A stretch of 64,000 nt of DNA from NCBI RefSeq assembly GCF_014132355.1, contig NZ_BLZO01000025.1, forward strand, positions 94,058 through 158,057, in the 5' to 3' direction. Position 1 is the stretch's first letter. Each line of letters begins with the position of its first letter. The notes beneath the pieces are model-generated. The model was not told the origin of the DNA. It did no database searches and saw nothing but the letters and a program-made list of their open reading frames with translations. This DNA comes from Okeania sp. KiyG1 (GTDB lineage Bacteria; Cyanobacteriota; Cyanobacteriia; Cyanobacteriales; Microcoleaceae). Positions 23,381 to 58,406 of the stretch are shown piece after piece. The translations under genes were made by a program, and so were the position numbers.

Positions 23381-23695
23381 ATGAATATTATTGACTTAGA
23401 AAAATATCCAGCACCAGACTTAGTAATAGAAGTTGCTAATAGTTCGCTTTCTGATGCTCAAGGAGAAAAACTTATTTTATATGAAAATATCGGAGTGGGA
23501 GAATATTGGATAATTGATGTACAAAATGTGCAAGTAATTGCATTTGCTGTAGCAGATAGAGGTAGTAAACAAATTCAAGAATCTCTTGTTTTACCAGAAT
23601 TAAAAATTTCCCTACTTGATGAAGCACTTCAACTTAGTAGGAATATGAATCAACGGTTAGTTGGAGCTTGGTTAATGGAAAAATTTCAGCAATAA
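23381..23695 (+). pseudogene. Half-Uma2 unit 1
   Basis: 104 codons: MNIIDLEKYPAPDLVIEVAN, then SSLSDAQGEK, ENIGVGEYWIIDVQNVQVIA, LPELKISLLDEAL and a MEKFQQ end. It keeps the second half of the PD-(D/E)XK fold, with Glu in VIEVANSS. It lacks the upstream half, including the PD aspartate, so nuclease activity is not expected. This unit uniquely has Ile-Ile in YWIIDV. The upstream N-terminal remnant carries an in-frame TAG. Confidence 0.65.
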
Positions 23696-23788
23696 AAATA
23701 ACTCAGCTTGCCAATAAATTTGTTGAAAAAGTAGATAAATAATGAGTAACTTACAAACCAAAATTTTAACTGATACAAAGTATAGATA

Positions 23789-24103
23789 ATGAATATTATT
23801 GACTTAGAAAAATATCCAGCACCAGACTTAGTAATAGAAGTTGCTAATAGTTCGCTTTCTGATGCTCAAGGAGAAAAACGTATTTTATATGAAAATATCG
23901 GAGTGGGAGAATATTGGATAGTTGATGTACAAAATGTGCAAGTAATTGCATTTGCTGTAGCAGATAGAGGTAGTAAACAAATTCAAGAATCTCTTGTTTT
24001 ACCAGAATTAAAAATTTCCCTACTTGATGAAGCACTTCAACTTAGTAGGAATATGAATCAACGGTTAGTTGGAGCTTGGTTAATGGAAAAATTTCAGCAA
24101 TAA
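23789..24103 (+). pseudogene. Half-Uma2 unit 2
   Basis: Same 104-codon unit, with GEKRILYENIG (Arg where the others have Leu). Its leader is shortened: the WSEYLQVLE remnant present before unit 1 is deleted, leaving only MSNLQTKILTDTK before the start. Confidence 0.65.
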
Positions 24104-24238
24104 AAATAACTCAGCTTGCCAATAAATTTGTTGAAAGAAGTAGATAAATAATGAGTAACTTACAAACCAAAATTTTAGCTGATACTTAGATAACTGCAAC
24201 TTGGTCAGAATATTTACAAGTGCTAGAAAGTATAGATA

Positions 24239-24553
24239 ATGAATATTATTGACTTAGAAAAATATCCAGCACCAGACTTAGTAATAGAAGTTGCTAATAG
24301 TTCGCTTTCTGATGCTCAAGGAGAAAAACTTATTTTATATGAAAATATCGGAGTGGGAGAATATTGGATTGTTGATGTACAAAATGTGCAAGTAATTGCA
24401 TTTGCTGTAGCAGATAGAGGTAGTAAACAAATTCAAGAATCTCTTGTTTTACCAGAATTAAAAATTTCCCTACTTGATGAAGCACTTCAACTTAGTAGGA
24501 ATATGAATCAACGGTTAGTTGGAGCTTGGTTAATGGAAAAATTTCAACAATAA
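24239..24553 (+). pseudogene. Half-Uma2 unit 3
   Basis: First unit of the 907-bp higher-order repeat. Protein identical to the consensus (GVGEYWIVDV). The leader contains the full N-terminal remnant with its stop codon. Confidence 0.65.
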
Positions 24554-24621
24554 AAATAACTCAGCTACTTAGATAACTGCAACTTGGTCAGAATATTTAC
24601 AAGTGCTAGAAAGTATAGATA

Positions 24622-24936
24622 ATGAATATTATTGACTTAGAAAAATATCCAGCACCAGACTTAGTAATAGAAGTTGCTAATAGTTCGCTTTCTGATGCTC
24701 AAGGAGAAAAACTTATTTTATATGAAAATATCGGAGTGGTAGAATATTGGATAGTTGATGTACAAAATGTGCAAGTAATTGCATTTGCTGTAGCAGATAG
24801 AGGTAGTAAACAAATTCAAGAATCTCTTGTTTTACCAGAATTAAAAATTTCCCTACTTGATGAAGCACTTCAACTTAGTAGGAATATGAATCAACGGTTA
24901 GTTGGAGCTTGGTTAATGGAAAAATTTCAACAATAA
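24622..24936 (+). pseudogene. Half-Uma2 unit 4
   Basis: Carries GVVEYWIVDV (Gly to Val), a marker shared with units 6 and 8 but not with 1, 2, 3, 5 or 7. This proves the pairwise (383 + 524) amplification. Its leader is short and is followed downstream by an extra copy of the 3' tail (RNMNQRLVGAWLMEKFQQ). Confidence 0.65.
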
Positions 24937-25145
24937 AAATAACTCAGCTTAGTAGGAATATGAATCAACGGTTAGTTGGAGCTTGGTTAATGGAAAAATT
25001 TCAGCAATAAAAATAACTCAGCTTGCCAATAAATTTGTTGAAAGAAGTAGATAAATAATGAGTAACTTACAAACCAAAATTTTAGCTGATACTTAGATAA
25101 CTGCAACTTGGTCAGAATATTTACAAGTGCTAGAAAGTATAGATA

Positions 25146-25460
25146 ATGAATATTATTGACTTAGAAAAATATCCAGCACCAGACTTAGTAATAGAAGTTG
25201 CTAATAGTTCGCTTTCTGATGCTCAAGGAGAAAAACTTATTTTATATGAAAATATCGGAGTGGGAGAATATTGGATTGTTGATGTACAAAATGTGCAAGT
25301 AATTGCATTTGCTGTAGCAGATAGAGGTAGTAAACAAATTCAAGAATCTCTTGTTTTACCAGAATTAAAAATTTCCCTACTTGATGAAGCACTTCAACTT
25401 AGTAGGAATATGAATCAACGGTTAGTTGGAGCTTGGTTAATGGAAAAATTTCAACAATAA
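25146..25460 (+). pseudogene. Half-Uma2 unit 5
   Basis: Repeats unit 3 exactly at the protein level (GVGEYWIVDV) and has the long leader. It begins the second 907-bp higher-order repeat. Confidence 0.65.
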
Positions 25461-25528
25461 AAATAACTCAGCTACTTAGATAACTGCAACTTGGTCAGAA
25501 TATTTACAAGTGCTAGAAAGTATAGATA

Positions 25529-25843
25529 ATGAATATTATTGACTTAGAAAAATATCCAGCACCAGACTTAGTAATAGAAGTTGCTAATAGTTCGCTTTCT
25601 GATGCTCAAGGAGAAAAACTTATTTTATATGAAAATATCGGAGTGGTAGAATATTGGATAGTTGATGTACAAAATGTGCAAGTAATTGCATTTGCTGTAG
25701 CAGATAGAGGTAGTAAACAAATTCAAGAATCTCTTGTTTTACCAGAATTAAAAATTTCCCTACTTGATGAAGCACTTCAACTTAGTAGGAATATGAATCA
25801 ACGGTTAGTTGGAGCTTGGTTAATGGAAAAATTTCAACAATAA
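25529..25843 (+). pseudogene. Half-Uma2 unit 6
   Basis: Repeats unit 4 (GVVEYWIVDV marker), followed by the same orphan 3' tail copy at about 25855-25915. Confidence 0.65.
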
Positions 25844-26052
25844 AAATAACTCAGCTTAGTAGGAATATGAATCAACGGTTAGTTGGAGCTTGGTTAATGG
25901 AAAAATTTCAACAATAAAAATAACTCAGCTTGCCAATAAATTTGTTGAAAGAAGTAGATAAATAATGAGTAACTTACAAACCAAAATTTTAGCTGATACT
26001 TAGATAACTGCAACTTGGTCAGAATATTTACAAGTGCTAGAAAGTATAGATA

Positions 26053-26367
26053 ATGAATATTATTGACTTAGAAAAATATCCAGCACCAGACTTAGTAATA
26101 GAAGTTGCTAATAGTTCGCTTTCTGATGCTCAAGGAGAAAAACTTATTTTATATGAAAATATCGGAGTGGGAGAATATTGGATTGTTGATGTACAAAATG
26201 TGCAAGTAATTGCATTTGCTGTAGCAGATAGAGGTAGTAAACAAATTCAAGAATCTCTTGTTTTACCAGAATTAAAAATTTCCCTACTTGATGAAGCACT
26301 TCAACTTAGTAGGAATATGAATCAACGGTTAGTTGGAGCTTGGTTAATGGAAAAATTTCAACAATAA
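26053..26367 (+). pseudogene. Half-Uma2 unit 7
   Basis: Repeats units 3 and 5. It begins the third higher-order repeat, of which only the first 383-bp half plus the diverged last unit is present. Confidence 0.65.
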
Positions 26368-26435
26368 AAATAACTCAGCTACTTAGATAACTGCAACTTG
26401 GTCAGAATATTTACAAGTGCTAGAAAGTATAGATA

Positions 26436-26750
26436 ATGAATATTATTGACTTAGAAAAATATCCAGCACCAGACTTAGTAATAGAAGTTGCTAATAGTTC
26501 GCTTTCTGATGCTCAAGGAGAAAAACTTATTTTATATGAAAATATCGGAGTGGTAGAATATTGGATAGTTGATGTACAAAATGTGAAAATTATTGCATTG
26601 TCCGTGGTGGATGGAGGTAGTAAACAAATTAGAGAATCTCTTGTTTTACCAGGATTAAAAATTGCTCTACTTGACGAAGCGCTTCAACATAGTCGAAATA
26701 TGAATCAACGCTTAGTTGGAAGTTGGTTAATGGAAAAATTTCAGCAATAA
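26436..26750 (+). pseudogene. Half-Uma2 unit 8, diverged 3' half
   Basis: The first half matches units 4 and 6 (GVVEYWIVDV). From residue about 50 it diverges: NVKIIALSVVDGGSKQIRES, LPGLKIALLDEALQHSRNMN, VGSWLMEKFQQ. It is probably the ancestral 3' end at the array edge, not homogenised with the rest. The junction marks a recombination point. Confidence 0.65.
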
Positions 26751-31473: not shown

Positions 31474-31690
31474 TTGACATCCTCCCCGGCCTAAAGGCAC
31501 GGGGATTCCTACCGAGCCTTAGCTCCTCGGTGGGTTGACGTCTCACAGGCTGCTGCTACTTTGGCAGTAGTCTGACGCTTGCCTCCACGTCCGTTTAGAG
31601 TTTCCGAGTGCCCCCCGGCAACTAATAACACTATAGCATATATTCAATTCACTTAACATAAAAATAAAAAGTCGCCCTACAAGGGCGAGG
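31474..31690 (-). mobile_element. tnpB-less IS200/IS605-type element with omega-RNA-like region
   Basis: Minus strand. The left-end hairpin TCGCCCTTGTAGGGCGA (31671-31687) with GACTTTTTAT matches the left end of the tnpB element at 56661-56690. The right part (GGACGTGGAGGCAAGCGTC, AGACTACTGCCAAAGTAGCA, CCCACCGAGGAGCTAAGGC, TCCCCGTGCCTTTAGGCC, then GGGGAGGATGTCAA) matches 57990-58137. The whole tnpB reading frame between these ends is missing. A TATAGT box lies at the left-end side (about 31634). Classic internal-deletion derivative that keeps ends and RNA scaffold. Confidence 0.75.
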
Positions 31691-37175: not shown

Positions 37176-39860
37176 TCACTCATCGGATTTATTTTCTTTT
37201 TGTGGAGCTGGAATTATGTCTTGAATTGGCTTTACCCATTCTGGTAATCCATCTGGATATAACTTAGGATAAATAATTAGTAAAATAATGCCAATAATAG
37301 AAGAGATTAAGATAAAAAGAATTTGCCCATTCTGCATCCAAGCCAAGAAATCTAAAAAACTTGGATTTTTAGTGTCCTCTCTTTTTGGTTGAGGAGAATT
37401 TCCTGTTACTTCATTTTTAATATTATTATTACCAAATATATTATCCACAACATTTCCATTTTTATTGTTAATTTTAGGGCTATTAACAATAACGTCTCCA
37501 CCTATATGTATATTATGAGGATGTCTAAGTTGTGAAATTTTTTCATAATTATGACTATCTATTGCATCATCAATTAAACTCCGGATATTAACTTCATAAT
37601 AGGGGGAATTACCGCATTCAATTGTCATTTTGCCATTATTAAGCCGTTCTTTTAATTTCTCAAATTTGTAGAAGTGAGGATTCTGAGTATTTTTACAAGT
37701 TCTACAATTACAAGGAATTAATTGATTATATTTGAGTCGATTATTGTAGGAGCTATGAATTTTATCTAATTCGTGAGTAACAATAGTGATTAAATCCCGT
37801 TTTTGTTGCCCAGAAATTCTAATTTTTATTTCTCTCTTACTGTAATATTCAATTACTTCTGCTCTGGTTTGATTTTTCTTGAGAATAACTCCACTTTTCC
37901 ATACATATTTTTGCTTCTCAATATTCTTGTGCATCGCCACAATAAACTGAGTAATTATTCCTTTAGGCATAAATTCGTAGGTGTAACGTAAAATCAAATT
38001 ATTACTTTCATCCCAGTCATATTCTGGTTGAGCTTCTGTTAGAAGTTGAGGGGCAATATAAGTTTGAGAAGTACCAGGAATTTTATAGCAGAGTTTAAAT
38101 TTAATCATTAATTGCAGTAACTCATCGTGCATATTGGCATATTTATCTTCATGCCAAATATTGACTAAATCGTCTTTGGTAAATTTGCCAAAATTATCAT
38201 AAACTTGTGGATTATCTAGAACTTTATAAACTGCGGCTGTTCCCCATTCTGGTTTGAGAATAACTGTTTTATTTAACAAAGGGTCATCTTGAAAATGAAG
38301 ACAAACTCCTAAGTCATGTAAGTAACCACTTAATTGTAATTTATCCTCTCGTTTCTTAAAGCCATTCTCTTCACAAATGGATAAATATTCTGTCAAACTA
38401 ATATAGTTACGACTATCTTTTTCTAATACTTCACGGACTTTTTTCCAAGTCTTAGGAAGGGCGCTGCCAATATGAGATAAATTACTGATGTAATGTTGGA
38501 TTTGTGTTCTAATTTTTTCTAATCCTTGGTTAGTAGCAAGATTAGTGGCTAAGATTTCTTTGATATTAGAAAATTGACTTTGCAATGCCCGTTGATTAAT
38601 TTCCCGTTTACGTTCCTGTTTCTCATTTTTGATAATTAATAAAGGACTATTATCGCTCAATAATTCTGCTATATTCAGCCAATAATAAAAATCTGTATCT
38701 TCTTTACGAGTATCAGCTACAAGAATATATAGGGAGCGTTTGGTCAGAAAAAACTGGTGAGTAGCATGATAAATTTCTTGTCCGCCAAAATCCCAAATAT
38801 TCATCTGAAATTCATGTTGATTTTTTGTGGGAAAATTCCACTGATGAACTTCAATTCCTTTGGTGGTATCTTCATCTCGGAGTTGATAGTCTGGGTTTTG
38901 AATTTTGTTAGCTAGTGTAGTTTTACCAGCGCCACCTTCTCCAATAATTATTAATTTTGCTTCATAGAGATAATCTATTCCTTCCTTTTCTATTTGTTGG
39001 AAATATTCTCTAATTGCTTTTATGCCTTTTGTAGCAATTTCTATTGGTGGAGTTTCTAGAGGATTATATCTTAAATAAAGCGTAGTTAAGTTGGTTAGTT
39101 TAGAAATTGATTCCGGTAATGTTGTTAATTTATTATAATCTAAATAAAACGTAGTTAAGTTGGTTAGTTTAGAAATTGATTCCGGTAATGTTGTTAATTT
39201 ATTATATTCTAAATAAAGCGTAGTTAAGTTGGTTAGTTTAGAAATTGATTCCGGTAATGTTGTTAATTTATTATATTCTAAATAAAGCGTAGTTAAGTTA
39301 GTAAGTTTACTGATTGATTCCGATAATGTTGTTAATTGATTATGTCTTAAATAAAGCGTAGTTAAGTTAGTGAGTTTACTGATTGATCCCGGTAATTTAG
39401 TTAATTGATTATAACCTAAATAAAGCGTAGTTAAGTTGGTTAGTTTAGAAATTGATTCCGGTAATGTTGTTAATTTATTATAATCTAAATAAAACGTAGT
39501 TAAGTTGATGAGTTTACTGATTGATTCCGGCAATTTTGTTAATTTATTTTTACTTAAATCAAGGGTGGTTAAGTTAGTGAGTTTAGAAATTGATTCCGGT
39601 AATTTTGTTAGTTTATTTTTACTTAAATCAAGGGTAGTTAAGTTAGTGAGTTTAGAAATTGATTCCGGTAATGTTGTTAATTTATTACTTCCTAAATAAA
39701 GCCTAGTTAAATTGGTGAGTTTAGAAATTGATTCCGGTAATGTTGTTAATTTATTATCACTTAAATCTAACTTCTTAAGTTTGTTATCCTTAGCTATCTG
39801 TATTTTTTTTTGAACACTTTCTGGTATCTGATTCTGTTTATTTATTTTAGGAGAAGTCAT
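37176..39860 (-). CDS. LRR-Roc-COR (ROCO) family GTPase with C-terminal membrane anchor
   Basis: About 894 residues from the ATG at 39860 (MTSPKINKQNQIPESVQ); the frame is open to an ATG at 39911. Residues about 30-275 hold ten 23-residue leucine-rich repeats (LTTLPESISKLTNLTTLYL). A Roc GTPase follows: P-loop GEGGAGKTT, TTKGIEVHQW, DFGGQEIYH and LLIIKNEKQ in place of NKxD. The COR region (TWKKVREVLEKDSRNYISL, KPEWGTAAVYKVLD) follows. The end has a cysteine pair (CNCRTCKNTQ) and one transmembrane helix (ILFILISSIIGIILLIIYP). ROCO proteins dimerise through COR and act as GTP switches; the output in cyanobacteria is unknown. Confidence 0.88.
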   Translation of the reverse strand: MTSPKINKQNQIPESVQKKIQIAKDNKLKKLDLSDNKLTTLPESISKLTNLTRLYLGSNKLTTLPESISKLTNLTTLDLSKNKLTKLPESISKLTNLTTLDLSKNKLTKLPESISKLINLTTFYLDYNKLTTLPESISKLTNLTTLYLGYNQLTKLPGSISKLTNLTTLYLRHNQLTTLSESISKLTNLTTLYLEYNKLTTLPESISKLTNLTTLYLEYNKLTTLPESISKLTNLTTFYLDYNKLTTLPESISKLTNLTTLYLRYNPLETPPIEIATKGIKAIREYFQQIEKEGIDYLYEAKLIIIGEGGAGKTTLANKIQNPDYQLRDEDTTKGIEVHQWNFPTKNQHEFQMNIWDFGGQEIYHATHQFFLTKRSLYILVADTRKEDTDFYYWLNIAELLSDNSPLLIIKNEKQERKREINQRALQSQFSNIKEILATNLATNQGLEKIRTQIQHYISNLSHIGSALPKTWKKVREVLEKDSRNYISLTEYLSICEENGFKKREDKLQLSGYLHDLGVCLHFQDDPLLNKTVILKPEWGTAAVYKVLDNPQVYDNFGKFTKDDLVNIWHEDKYANMHDELLQLMIKFKLCYKIPGTSQTYIAPQLLTEAQPEYDWDESNNLILRYTYEFMPKGIITQFIVAMHKNIEKQKYVWKSGVILKKNQTRAEVIEYYSKREIKIRISGQQKRDLITIVTHELDKIHSSYNNRLKYNQLIPCNCRTCKNTQNPHFYKFEKLKERLNNGKMTIECGNSPYYEVNIRSLIDDAIDSHNYEKISQLRHPHNIHIGGDVIVNSPKINNKNGNVVDNIFGNNNIKNEVTGNSPQPKREDTKNPSFLDFLAWMQNGQILFILISSIIGIILLIIYPKLYPDGLPEWVKPIQDIIPAPQKENKSDE

Positions 39861-41250
39861 AATTCCATAAAATATTTTTACGCTCACTATAATACCTACA
39901 AAGACAAACATTGATTTTCCATAACTATTTAGGGTTTGCTTATGGAAGTCTTATGGGTGAGGGTAGGAGACAGGAGAATAGAATTTCCTACGGAATGCTC
40001 CACAAACAGAATTCTGAATTTCCTACGGAATGCTCCGCAAATAGAATTCAGAATTTATCAGAATTTAGAGGAGTTAGGAGGAAGAAATATCCCTTAATTT
40101 TTCTATCCTTATCTACTCAGAATTCTAACTTTTTAGCTTTTTAGACGGAAAACCTTGCACCTTTTTTCACTCTAAAAATCCTCAAATATTTACATATAAA
40201 GGCTTTGACAATTAATCAGTAGAACAATAATTATCCATATTGGTCAATCCTCTCCTTTTTAGGGAAAGGTAATTATCCATTATCCATTAATGAACCATTT
40301 CCTTTGGTAAGCATTTCCTGCTGAATGCTGCGCAAACAACTATTAGCATTCAGCTAATTCCTTCTTCCAAGATAATGACTTATAACTCATACCTAATAGC
40401 TGACTGCTGACTGCTGACCGCTGAATGCTTACGTCTTAATAAAGCGATATAGCTGCCGCACTTACTCCGCCAACGCTTCAAAAGCTTCTATATCTCAAAA
40501 TCAGTTGAACACTTAACTTTTACTTATCAATTTCAGTATTTTCCTTTGAATATTTTTAATTTTGTCAGGATTTTATGACAAAAAGAAAAAAAATTTTCTG
40601 AGAAAACTAACGAAGTTTCAAAATTTTTAGCTGTTTTTCTCAATTGTGTAGTATTATGAATTGTAGTAAAATCTGAAGCTAATTATTGCTGAAGAGAATT
40701 TTGACGCTGCAAATACTGATTATTTCGTTCTTTCAGAGACAAATAGTCTTGTTTTCCTCAACCAGAAATGACAAATTTTTCTCTTCTAACTTTTCCGCAG
40801 TTTGATAGATTGACAAATTTGTGGTATGCGGGAGAAAAAAGAACAATTATAGCTGATGAGCGATCGCTCCACTCTTATCCAAACACTTTTTTGACCAAAA
40901 TAACATGGGTCTAAAACCCCGCCTTTTAAGGCGAAATATTTTTGGAGCTTTTCTCAAATCCCCTACTTCCCCTCCTGGGAGGGTTAGGGTGGGTTAACTT
41001 CTGTACGGGCGCCATTCGGAGCTTTGCGCCAGCAAACGGCCGTTTGCTTCGCATAACTATCGTTAACGCCCCTACTTCTGACTTCTGACTTCGTTAAAAT
41101 CTCCGATTTAACAGGAGAGAACTTCACCTGCATATTAAATCAGTAGTCAGAAATATTGCTAGAATGACTGAAAATATAGCTTTTGAATAAAATCTGGCAG
41201 AGGTAGATTCTGGCAAAAGCTAGAATTAAATATATAGAATTAAAAATCTC
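39861..41250. repeat. 1.4-kb repeat-rich gap
   Basis: No gene supported. Mini-repeat copies lie at about 39984-40010, 40018-40044 and 40312-40337. A CTGACTGCTGACTGCTGACC run is near 40400. 40910-41000 is the inverted copy of 14690-14890. At 40985-41075 a GGGCGCCATTCGG...GCCCCTAC palindrome has another repeat (GCTTCGCATAACTATCGTTA) inside it. The AT-rich stretch 40540-40890 has no recognisable element. Confidence 0.55.
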
Positions 41251-52398: not shown

Positions 52399-54215
52399 AT
52401 GGCAGAAATATTTCAGTAGTCAGAATCAATAATTATTCAGCTATTAATATTAGATATTTAGTCAGACCATCATTATTTCAAGGCTCTGACTTTCCTGCGG
52501 AATGCTGCGCAAACAGGCAGAGGTGCTGAAGGGCGCAGTTCCTCCGGAGGAGGCTAACTGATAACTGAAATGAACGCAGATTTAGGAGTGAAAATTTGGC
52601 AAATAAAGAAAGTAATTAATGGCAGAAATATTTTAGTATTCAGAATCAATAATTATTCAGCTATTAATATTAAATATTTAGTCAGACATCATTATTTCAA
52701 GGCTCTAACTTTCCTGCGGAATGCTGTGCAAACAGGCAGAGGTACTGAAGGGCGCAGTTCCTCCGGAGGAGGCTAACTGTTAACGCAGTTCCTCCGGAGG
52801 AGGCTAACTGATAACTGAAATGAAGGTAGATTTAGGAGTGAAAATTTGGCAAATAAAGAAAGTAATTAATGGCAGAAATATTTTAGTATTCAGAATCAAT
52901 AATTATTCAGCTATTAATATTAGATGTTTAGTCAGACATCATTATTTCAAGGCTCTGAATTTCCTGCGGAATGCTGCGCAAACAGGCAGAGGTACTGTTA
53001 ACTGATAACTGATAATTGATAACTGAAATGACCGCAGATTTAGGAGTGAAAATTTGGCAAATAAAGAAAGTAATTAATGGCAGAAATATTTTAGTATTCA
53101 GAATCAATAATTATTCAGCTATTAATATTAGATGTTTAGTCAGACATCATTATTTCAAGGCTCTGAATTTCCTGCGGAATGCTGTGCAAACAGGCAGAGG
53201 TACTGTTAACTGATAACTGAAATGACCGCAGATTTAGGAGTGAAAATTTGGCAAATAAAGAAAGTAATTAATGGCAGAAATATTTTAGTATTCAGAATCA
53301 AGAATTATTCAGCTATTAATATTAGATGTTTAGTCAGACATCATTATTTCAAGGCTCTGAATTTCCTGCGGAATGCTGCGCAAACAGGCAGAGGTACTGA
53401 TAACTGATAACTGATAACTGATAACTGATAACTGATAACTGAAATGACCGCAGATTTAGGAGTGAAAATTTGGCAAATAAAGAAAGTAATTAATGGCAGA
53501 AATATTTTAGTATTCAGAATCAATAATTATTCAGCTATTAATATTAGATGTTTAGTCAGACATCATTATTTCAAGGCTCTGAATTTCCTGCGGAATGCTG
53601 CGCAAACAGGCAGAGGTACTGTTAACTGATAACTGATAACTGATAACTGAAATGACCGCAGATTTAGGAGTGAAAATTTGGCAAATAAAGAAAGTAATTA
53701 ATGGCAGAAATATTTTAGTATTCAGAATCAAGAATTATTCAGCTATTAATATTAGATATTTAGTCAGAACATCATTATTTCAAGGCTCTGAATTTCCTGC
53801 GGAATGCTGCGCAAACAGTCAGAGGTACTGAAGGGCGCAGTTCCTCCGGAAGAGGCTAACTGATAACTGATAACTGATAATTGATAACTGAAATGAACGC
53901 AGATTTAGGAGTGAAAAATTGGCAAATACAGAAAGTAATTAATGACATAAATATTTTAGTATTCAGAATCAAGAATTATTCAGCTATTAATATTAGATAT
54001 TTAGTCAGAACATCATTATTTCAAGGCTCTGAATTTCCTGCGGAATGCTGCGCAAACAGGCAGAGGTACTGTTAACTGATAACTGATAACTGATAACTGA
54101 TAACTGATAACTGAAATGACCGCAGATTTAGGAGTGAAAAATTGGCAAATACAGAAAGTAATTAATGACATAAATATTTCAGAATTCAGAATCAAGAATT
54201 AGTTGATGAGAGATT
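52399..54215 (+). repeat. Tandem array of about nine units of 190-250 bp
   Basis: Units share ATGACCGCAGATTTAGGAGT, GCAAATAAAGAAAGTAATTA, GGCAGAAATATTTTAGTATT, TTTAGTCAGACATCATTATT, then the mini-repeat TTTCCTGCGGAATGCTGCGC, AGGCAGAGGTACTG and GATAACTGATAACTG linkers. ATGs of units lie at 52570, 52820, 53028, 53222, 53444, 53652, 53892 and 54115, plus a leading partial unit from 52399. Spacing varies because the number of linker copies differs, and some units carry a GCAGTTCCTCCGGAGGAGGC block. Each can be translated as a 61-68-residue frame, but that frame runs through the mini-repeat, so it is probably not a gene. A related non-repeated ancestor is visible near 52060-52130. Confidence 0.8.
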
Positions 54216-56594: not shown

Positions 56595-56739
56595 TTACAT
56601 TTCATTAACTCACCCTATACAATCTAATATTTATTTGACCGAAAAATTGGGTCCCAAGCCTCGCCCTTCTAGGGCGACTTTTTAGTTGTTAAGTGTTTCA
56701 ATTAATATGTTACAATACTGTTAGTTTAAATATCGAATT

Positions 56740-58023
56740 ATGAAAGCTAGATTTAAGTATCGCATATATCCAACACCGGGACAAAAGCATCAATTAGCAA
56801 AGCTATTTGGTTGCGTTTGCTGGCGCAACACTTCGTGAACGTGTTGTTTGGAATGATAGCCTAGCTTGTTGTCAAGAAAAATACAAATCAGGAGGTAAGA
56901 AACCCACTAACTCACAACTACAAAAACAGTTTATTACTCAAGCAAAAAAGACTGAAAATAGAGAGTGGCTTCAAGAAGTTTCTAACATACCATTGCAGCA
57001 ATCTTTGAATGATTTAAACCAGGCTTATCAAAACTTTTTTCAATCAACAAAAGGCCAGAGAAAAGGTAAACCTGTTAAACCTCCTAAATTCAAAAGTAGA
57101 AAGTCAAAACAAACTGCTAGATTTACAAGAGGAGGTTTTAAAGTTGGTCAGCATAAAGTTTATTTAGCCAAAGTTGGAAAACTCAAGATAGTTTGGTCTA
57201 GAGAGTTACCTGCTGCTCCATCATCAGTAACAGTAATCAAAGACGTAGGGGCAAACGGCCGTTTGCCCCTACATAGATATTTCTTAAGTTTTGTAGTAGA
57301 AACTTGTGCCAAAACCTTGCCTCGTACTGATAATTCAGTGGGGATAGACTTAGGCATTAAAACCTTTGCTACATTTAGTGATGGTACGAAGGTTGATGCA
57401 CCTAAACCATTGAAAAAACGGATTAAAAAGTAGCCTCTTTCAGAGGAGCTGCGCTAACGAAAGCTAAGTAAATCATTATCAAAAAAAACCTTTGGGTCTA
57501 AACAATATGAAAAAGCTAGATTGAGAGTAGCTAAATTTTCCTACGGAATGCTGCGCAAACATGCCAAAGTAAAAGACATGAGGACTGATTTTCTGCATAA
57601 ATTGTCCACTGAAATAATTCGTGAAAACCAAACAATTGTTTTAGAGGATTTGAATGTTTCTGGAATGGTCAAAAAGCGGTGCGACCCCGCGACGACGCCA
57701 GCTCGCTTGCGGAACGCGCACCAAGAGACCGTAAATTATCCAGAGCAATATCAGATTTAGGTTGGCGGACATTCCGAACACTTCTAGAAGGTAAAGCAGA
57801 AAAATACGGTCGCGATTTCAGAGTAATTAATCGTTGGGAGCCAACCAGCCAAAAATGCAGTTGTTGTGGTTTTCGTGGAGGCAAATTAGACCTTCAAGTG
57901 CGAGAGTGGGAATGCCTTAACTGTGGTGCAAAACACGATAGAGACAAGAATGCAGCAATAAATATATTAGTCGCGGGCGGGCAGTCCGAGACAAAAAACG
58001 GACGTGGAGGCAAGCGTAAGACT
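56740..58023 (+). pseudogene. tnpB: tnpB interrupted by at least five palindromic mini-insertions
   Basis: Reads KARFKYRIYPTPGQKHQLAK, LFGCV, then an insertion. It continues VVWNDSLACCQEKYKSGGKK ... VGIDLGIKTFATFSDG (RuvC-I Asp) ... IVLEDLNVSGMVK (Glu) ... QKCSCCGFRGGKL, CLNCGAKHDRDKNAAINIL (zinc ribbon and third Asp). Insertions sit at about 56818-56839 (frame-breaking), 57245-57272 (28-bp palindrome, in frame as GANGRLPLHR), 57431-57461 (brings a stop), 57536-57560 (24 nt in frame as FSYGMLRK) and 57676-57728 (frame-breaking). Removing them restores a full-length TnpB. Confidence 0.85.
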
Positions 58024-58137
58024 ACTGCAAAAGTAGCAGCAGCCTGTGTTAGCGGCAGCTATGCGAAGCAAAACGTCAACCCACCGAGGAGCTACGGCGG
58101 TAGGAATCCCCGCGCCTTTAGGCCGGGGAGGATGTCA
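57961..58137 (+). ncRNA. Omega-RNA-like 3' region of the tnpB element
   Basis: Conserved with 31474-31620 on the other strand (GGACGTGGAGGCAAGCGT, GACTACTGCAAAAGTAGCAG hairpin, CCCACCGAGGAGCTACGG, CCCCGCGCCTTTAGGCCGGG hairpin, GATGTCAA end). Relative to that copy about 25 bases (TTAGCGGCAGCTATGCGAAG...) are inserted at about 58049-58073, from another mini-repeat family. Function as guide RNA is inferred from TnpB biology. Confidence 0.55.
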
Positions 58138-58406
58138 AAAACACTCTCTTTCGCATTGCAGGGGAGTAAGGGAGTGGGGGAGAAGTAAACATCCGAAATA
58201 TGCTGTATCTATAAAGTGCATATTTAACGCTAAAAATAAAATATTTATTTTACCCTATTTTACAATACATTCACAAGCAAACCTCAAAAATAAAATTTTT
58301 CTTTAATACCATTGACAAATTCTTAAATAAAATTATTCTGATTTACAGCAGTAAAAGCTGATACAGATTAAATTGCTAAGTTACTAAATCATTTTGAGGT
58401 TAAGTT

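Follow-up and report, generated by a model that had tools for sequence, protein, structure and literature searches.

The window, by which we mean the whole 64,000-nucleotide stretch of Okeania DNA analysed here, contains at 56640-58140 on the plus strand a decayed tnpB element of the IS200/IS605 type, with the TnpB start codon at 56740 and no tnpA seen inside. TnpB domains and shared element ends both place it in this group. Pfam family PF07282 matches the 3′ part of the element (E 5.6e-24), and in a DNA search most full-length matches among genomic paralogues share the same ends (query positions ∼1-5 to 1499-1501). Searching the host's own genome (10.98 Mb in 198 contigs) with positions 56640-58140 retrieved dozens of copies, ∼30 of them near full length, and the family comprises about 40 copies in this genome. 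Elsewhere in the window are eight consecutive plus-strand ORFs of exactly 104 amino acids (23381-26750), probably a tandem gene array, and a 911-amino-acid LRR-Roc-COR protein, a bacterial ROCO-type GTPase (37176-39911). No Rfam match was obtained within the window.

For a 40-sequence alignment, the window copy was combined with 39 paralogues found in its own genome. Relative to these and to copies in other genomes it carries six short inserts, in agreement with the first-pass annotation of this DNA, which had described about six mini-insertions in one tnpB. Insert-free paralogues include L019, with a TnpB ORF of 400 amino acids, and L028, with one of 397, and L024 and L032 likewise have the insert-free length. 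This alignment with copies of the same subfamily, a step that the annotation had suggested, defines all six inserts and shifts the boundaries first proposed by only a few bases (57431-57461 becomes 57433-57456, 57536-57560, first given as 24 nt, becomes 57539-57559 and 58049-58073 becomes 58049-58070).

The first insert, at 56818-56839, is a frameshifting 22-nt double-hairpin unit on the minus strand (reading TTCACGAAGTGTTGCGCCAGCA) that is found in 7 of the 40 aligned copies and whose length of 22 is given by filled and empty junctions. At 57245-57272 lies a plus-strand 28-nt palindrome, GTAGGGGCAAACGGCCGTTTGCCCCTAC, which replaces seven nucleotides (TCAGCTA in the empty copy L019) and thereby adds a net 21 with the frame kept; 13 of 36 tnpB copies carry a palindrome at this site, and two more carry a variant shifted by one base. 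The remaining inserts are likewise on the plus strand. A 24-nt double-hairpin unit, GCCTCTTTCAGAGGAGCTGCGCTA, occupies 57433-57456 (2 of 40 copies), and a 21-nt double-hairpin unit, TCCTACGGAATGCTGCGCAAA, is inserted in frame at TTT^CAT to fill 57539-57559 (4 of 40). A frameshifting 53-nt GC-rich hairpin unit follows at 57675-57727, which is equivalent to 57676-57728 (5 of 40). Finally, a 22-nt double-hairpin unit, TTAGCGGCAGCTATGCGAAGCA, sits at G^AA at 58049-58070 in the 3′ region of the element, a putative guide-RNA region, and 17 of 36 copies have a unit of this type at the same site. The sequence of the sister tail at 31474-31620 lacks this last piece, as had been noted before.

The two 22-nt pieces (56818 and 58049) are alike in length, target and fold. 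Three inserts have net lengths that keep the frame, namely the palindrome (+21), the 24-nt unit (+24) and the 21-nt unit (+21). The initial description of two pieces as in frame thus needs correction, and the 24-nt unit creates a TAG at its left edge (57431-57433) that terminates the ORF at 56807-57433. At a second palindrome site, which is filled in 14 of the 40 copies and empty in the window copy, the palindrome takes the place of about 10 nucleotides, for a net gain of 18 in most.

The six inserts represent at least four repeat families, and the proposal that these families recur elsewhere is borne out far above chance. Occurrences were counted in a 2.064-Mb sample made up of the window and 100 of 120 random 20-kb tiles drawn from 42 contigs of known length; these were contigs met in earlier matches and so are rich in tnpB, and the window's own contig (C25) was left out of the tile draw. 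Patterns for the six inserts, in order, match 4, 51, 27, 187, 10 and 35 times in this sample and the reversed patterns 0, 0, 0, 0, 0 and 1 times, which rules out chance matches as the source of the repeats. The sixth pattern describes a relative of the 58049 unit; the class to which the 58049 unit itself belongs is represented 37 times in the 2.064 Mb. GTAGGGG...CCCCTAC units of exactly 28 nt also number 37 in this sample. The 56818 type occupies six places, two outside tnpB and the other four at one tnpB site. Across the whole genome, a 24-nt string around the 21-nt unit has 547 matches with at most two mismatches, and two palindrome variants have 79 and 122 matches with at most three, each with none in the control. 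Within the window, an array at 52493-54056 consists of eight plus-strand 21-nt units spaced by ∼190-250 bp and four minus-strand 24-nt units.

The same 24-nt string, again with at most two mismatches, is present in 15 of 60 genomes (12 of the 55 good ones) and in 4 of 34 genera. Genomes of the host's own genus have 237 to 547 matches each, with zero in the reversed control throughout. All four genera with the 21-nt family belong to the host's family, and 0 of 23 sampled genomes from other families of the order have it. The palindrome is spread more widely (25 of 60 genomes, 11 of 34 genera). Exact matches to the 56818 junction sequence in named records come from eight stretches, all in the Okeania metagenome assemblies SIO3B5 and SIO2B3.

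Four of the six inserts (the 21-nt unit, the 24-nt unit and both 22-nt units) are predicted, as single-stranded DNA, to form two abutting hairpins with stems of 3-5 base pairs and loops of 3-4 nucleotides. These double-hairpin units are no more stable than shuffled sequences (z −0.05 to −0.73), whereas the 28-nt palindrome is (z −5.8). Covariation is better evidence for the double-hairpin fold than the stability of any single fold. In one 22-nt class, both variable pairs of the first stem are preserved in 19 of 23 distinct sequences (mean of 4.7 and maximum of 11 after shuffling); the corresponding values are 5 of 12 for the other 22-nt class (mean 0.7, maximum 4) and 26 of 97 for the 21-nt class (mean 12.6, maximum 21), all against shuffles that ignore the relatedness of the sequences. 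When double mini-hairpins in general were scanned for, the host genome gave 357 hits per 100 kb and a Markov control 326, so that real units did not stand out from the control; 200 kb of Nostoc plasmids yielded fewer hits than control (234 versus 283 and 265 versus 299). A narrower double-hairpin pattern found one look-alike per Nostoc plasmid.

Comparison of filled sites with matching empty sites within the sequence analysed yielded 162 pairs in 101 contexts, of which 52 are clean non-palindrome contexts. Contexts were distinguished by five nucleotides of flank on each side, so that a single tnpB site may contribute several contexts and not all of them are independent. The commonest insert lengths in clean contexts are 21 nt (16 of 25), 24 nt (6 of 7), 53 nt (6 of 8, four of these six being the 57675 site) and 22 nt (7 of 8 for the family like the 58049 unit, and 3 of 4 for the 56818 type, whose contexts represent one tnpB site). 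Junction repeats of at least three nucleotides occur in 4 of the 52 clean contexts, which indicates little target duplication.

Targets differ by class. In 96 distinct contexts, the 21-nt unit stands after two T residues (91% and 96%, in that order) and before a C (92%), and its empty sites as aligned read TT^C in 8 of 16 cases. Empty sites of the 58049-like family as aligned read G^AA in 5 of 7, and G^AA flanks surround 26 of the 37 instances of the 22-nt class that contains the 58049 unit. Some exceptions to TT^C and G^AA differ by a shift of one or two bases, and the target rules are not absolute.

The palindrome behaves differently in that it swaps out 7-10 nucleotides of target instead of being simply inserted. 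In a genome designated G005, the positions of the palindromes at L163:498 and L126:19359, which belong to one syntenic block of the host genome, hold eight or nine other bases, and the adjoining DNA on both sides is 94.8-97.3% identical. Several replaced targets (TAAGCTGA, TAAGCTAC, TCAGCTA and TTAGCTG), not all, contain AGCT. Insertions are also nested: a piece lies inside a palindrome in L020, L035, L044 and L084, and one lies inside a 24-nt unit in L020.

Several of these features recall repeats that are already known. Elhai et al. (Genome Res, 2008) reportedly described small dispersed repeats (SDRs) of Nostoc that are ∼21-27 nt long, dispersed and nested, often in heptamer repeats, and SDR4-6 are said to share a small secondary structure with compensatory changes. 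The units described here resemble SDRs in these general features: they are commonest at 21, 22 and 24 nt, have many dispersed copies (547 matches versus 0 for the string around the 21-nt unit), receive nested insertions and form two abutting hairpins in four units, with pairing above every shuffle in three classes when relatedness is left uncontrolled. A passage of one article states that SDR5 inserts precisely between bases 3 and 4 of HIP1 (PMC4390886). In contrast, no such HIP1 rule is evident here, as the 2.064 Mb contain no strongly recurrent 16-33-nt segment between GCG and ATCGC, although this rule concerns one SDR family only. The units also differ from SDRs in that the 21-nt family occurs, among the genomes sampled, in four genera of the host's family and in none of the 23 from other families of the order, and the hosts are Okeania and its kin, not Nostoc.

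The palindrome has its own relatives. GTAG-tagged REPs and REPINs, which are associated with RAYT transposases, are presented in sections of two articles as short dispersed palindromes with a GTAG edge that sometimes lie inside genes (PMC3733652, PMC3116915). The element described here is likewise a GTAG-edged palindrome with many copies, RAYTs are present in the genome, and one RAYT-like gene lies among related palindromes, although its 28-nt copy is inside the ORF and two other RAYTs have different palindromes beside them. Distinctive features here are the symmetry of the palindrome (GTAG...CTAC) and the loss of 7-10 nt of target on insertion. Like Rickettsia palindromic elements, which a section of PMC3733652 characterizes as palindromic repeats within coding sequence that keep the frame, it also occurs in frame in coding sequence, but at 28 nt it is shorter and it occupies decayed or mobile genes (two units of any family in 1.026 Mb of other long ORFs). 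MITEs, given in the same section as non-coding, dispersed elements of 70-300 bp (PMC3733652), share with our units the non-coding character, the dispersal and presumably movement in trans. The units here are far below that size range, and those of 21-24 nt show no evident terminal inverted repeats; junction repeats of at least three nucleotides occur in only 4 of the 52 clean non-palindrome contexts.

Because the units match SDRs in size, structure and nesting and the palindrome matches GTAG-tagged REPs, we place both within known kinds. The initial suggestion of an undescribed mobile system was therefore too strong, since SDRs and GTAG-tagged REPs have been described. What is unusual relative to these kinds is the target-replacing junction of the palindrome and the class-specific targets. 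A literature search, with most subscription papers outside its coverage, found no published report of such repeats in Okeania.

Seven unit patterns mark 367 places in the 2.064 Mb. A comparison of repeats inside tnpB with those elsewhere had been proposed at the outset, and tnpB is indeed the densest class measured, with 66 units in 88.5 kb (746 per Mb). Other multicopy genes have 4 in 41.8 kb (96 per Mb), other ORFs of at least 150 amino acids have 2 in 1.026 Mb (2 per Mb), and the remaining 908 kb holds 295 (325 per Mb). When places with similar flanks are joined, the 66 in tnpB become 30 sites (339 per Mb) and the remainder becomes 129 sites (142 per Mb), the latter count being lowered by single-linkage that joined 61 non-tnpB places into one. 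The excess of tnpB over the remainder is thus 2.3- to 2.4-fold (p 2e-8 uncollapsed, 7e-5 collapsed). Among tnpB stretches of at least 900 bp, a unit is carried by 32 of 42 without an ORF of at least 350 amino acids versus 3 of 15 with one (Fisher p 0.0004), a contrast that is partly circular because the frameshifting inserts of 22 and 53 nt are enough to disrupt the ORF. Purging is indicated more firmly by the scarcity of units in ordinary ORFs.

One explanation for this distribution is that tnpB is a preferred landing site, whose targets would be exposed by a single-stranded transposition phase or by RNA-guided nicks. It would account for a tnpB density above that of other non-ORF DNA both before (2.3-fold) and after (2.4-fold) collapsing and for the low count in other multicopy genes relative to tnpB, and two inserts without raised linkage disequilibrium (LD) to near SNPs (see below) are compatible with it. 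However, each of the six inserts in the window copy is found at the same alignment column in other tnpB copies, 12 of the 15 long-ORF tnpB stretches are free of units while ORF-less ones are loaded (with the circularity just mentioned), and 295 of the 367 places lie in DNA that is neither tnpB, other multicopy gene nor long ORF. The claim that tnpB attracts or enables insertion is unsupported by these observations, and we consider such a landing site unlikely; a modest preference for tnpB is compatible with the counts. Most simply, units would disappear from working genes and persist in dead ones, which fits relaxed selection, and the residual 2.3- to 2.4-fold excess may only reflect promoters and small genes under selection in the remainder.

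Orientation was also examined. Among co-directional gene pairs, the 21-nt family shows no significant sense-strand bias (37 same versus 22 opposite, p 0.067), and the other four families show none (p 0.70 or more). The lack of bias speaks against insertion into transcripts.

The tnpB copies recombine on a short scale. LD was assessed in 36 of the 40 copies, after three partial ones (L078, L079 and L085) and one with a large insertion (L084) were dropped. Mean r2 between SNPs is 0.47 at distances of 1-2 nt, 0.11 at 6-10 nt and 0.04 at more than 640 nt; the near-far difference is 0.033 versus at most 0.0064 in 500 position permutations, and 31 dereplicated copies agree. Many pairs of inserts occur in all four combinations of presence and absence, so that inserts combine freely. 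Based on 7-8 SNPs per insert within 25 nt, mean r2 between insert and SNPs is not raised for the 56818 insert (0.039 within 25 nt, 0.051 beyond 250 nt) or the 57675 insert (0.023 and 0.067) and is slightly raised for the 58049 insert (0.067 and 0.031) and the 57539 insert (0.094 and 0.036). At both palindrome sites, the replaced bases themselves probably inflate the r2 values close to the site. Short-scale recombination means that inserts of several lineages can accumulate in a single copy, and the recurrence of all six at the same sites in other copies indicates that most of the load is probably inherited.

Alternatively, many tnpB copies may have acquired each insert separately at exactly the same spot. 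Given the LD values, repeated insertion at one spot is possible for the 56818, 57675, 57539 and 58049 inserts, and the four presence/absence combinations, the two inserts without raised LD to their neighbours and the two placements of the palindrome at the 57245 site, which differ by one base, would all fit it. However, SNPs are equally mosaic and their LD depends on distance, such that recombination alone yields these combinations. Moreover, the 56818 type is rare elsewhere (two of its six places in 2.064 Mb are outside tnpB), and the same junction sequence is present in other Okeania assemblies. Independent acquisition in place of inheritance therefore seems quite improbable. The notion that the pieces are native variable TnpB segments lost from other copies gains nothing beyond the frame-keeping lengths of three of them and is virtually ruled out, because insert-free copies with ORFs of 397-400 amino acids encode full-length TnpB, so that none of the six is native, and the repeat families recur at unrelated loci.

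Returning to mobile repeats as the source of the inserts, the host genome has 24 matches to Y1 transposases, fragments included. Six RAYT-type ORFs were examined, four of which pass the NCBIfam REP-transposase cut-off and two of which fall just short. One RAYT-like ORF of 198 amino acids (L247:692-1288; score 75.8, cut-off 80) lies among GTAGGGGCGAATGGCATTCGCCC / GTAGGGGC repeats, with related palindromes around it, and contains an in-frame 28-nt GTAGGGG palindrome within the ORF (peptide VGANGRSPLH). The RAYT genes L143:14605-15099 and L175:10160-10645 are adjoined by different palindromic repeats, of the GCGAGCAAGATGCTCGC and CAGGCTGGAAGCCTG types, respectively. The palindrome would most likely be moved in trans by a single-strand (HUH/Y1) transposase, for example a RAYT-type enzyme of this genome. 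The L247 arrangement supports a RAYT-type mover without proving it. The hairpins and the little target duplication of the 21-24-nt units suit a single-strand DNA or RNA-based route.

We think it probable that the locus is a decayed tnpB holding six inserts of two kinds of tiny non-coding mobile repeat, which are purged from working genes and are kept and reshuffled in dead copies. This reading draws on features observed directly: the foreign origin of the pieces, their usual lengths, junctions, copy numbers, nesting and shared sites, the recombination of tnpB and the concentration of units in decayed copies. Fixed-length double-hairpin units of 21, 22 and 24 nt, together with the 53-nt hairpin unit, would enter a short target with little or no duplication, and the 28-nt GTAG...CTAC palindrome, of the REP kind, would replace a target of 7-10 nt. 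Units may arrive anywhere at a low rate, and they would be purged from working genes and survive in intergenic DNA and dead tnpB copies, where copying and recombination of the tnpB elements could multiply and reshuffle them. The main reason why the repeats accumulate in tnpB is thus probably that broken copies withstand them and hand them on. Counting against this reading, our analysis identified no candidate for the mover of the 21-24-nt units. More generally, where copies recombine and decay, a transposon copy filled with inserts should not be taken for an insertion hot spot on that account alone.

A more specific and tentative proposal, which we regard as possible though somewhat doubtful, is that the 21-, 22- and 24-nt units form one in-trans transposition system with class-specific targets (TT^C and G^AA) and little or no duplication. 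The tnpB elements would then be carriers between sites and species, and stores once the gene is dead, and the palindrome would move by a separate reaction that replaces 7-10 nt. If true, the 21-24-nt double-hairpin system would be among the smallest transposition systems known, and we know of no mover established for mobile repeats of ∼21-24 nt. The Okeania genome, which offers hundreds of copies, units of defined length, target preferences, empty sites and sites that vary among related genomes, makes the question of the mover directly testable.

The target-replacing junctions of the palindrome offer a mechanistic clue for REP-type elements. Short patch substitutions shared among tnpB paralogues look like small replacement events too. 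The change from TTTGGAAT to CGAGTGAAT is common to L027, L030, L031, L038 and L081, and that from TTATCAA to GTTGCTCT is common to L038, L041, L044 and L081.
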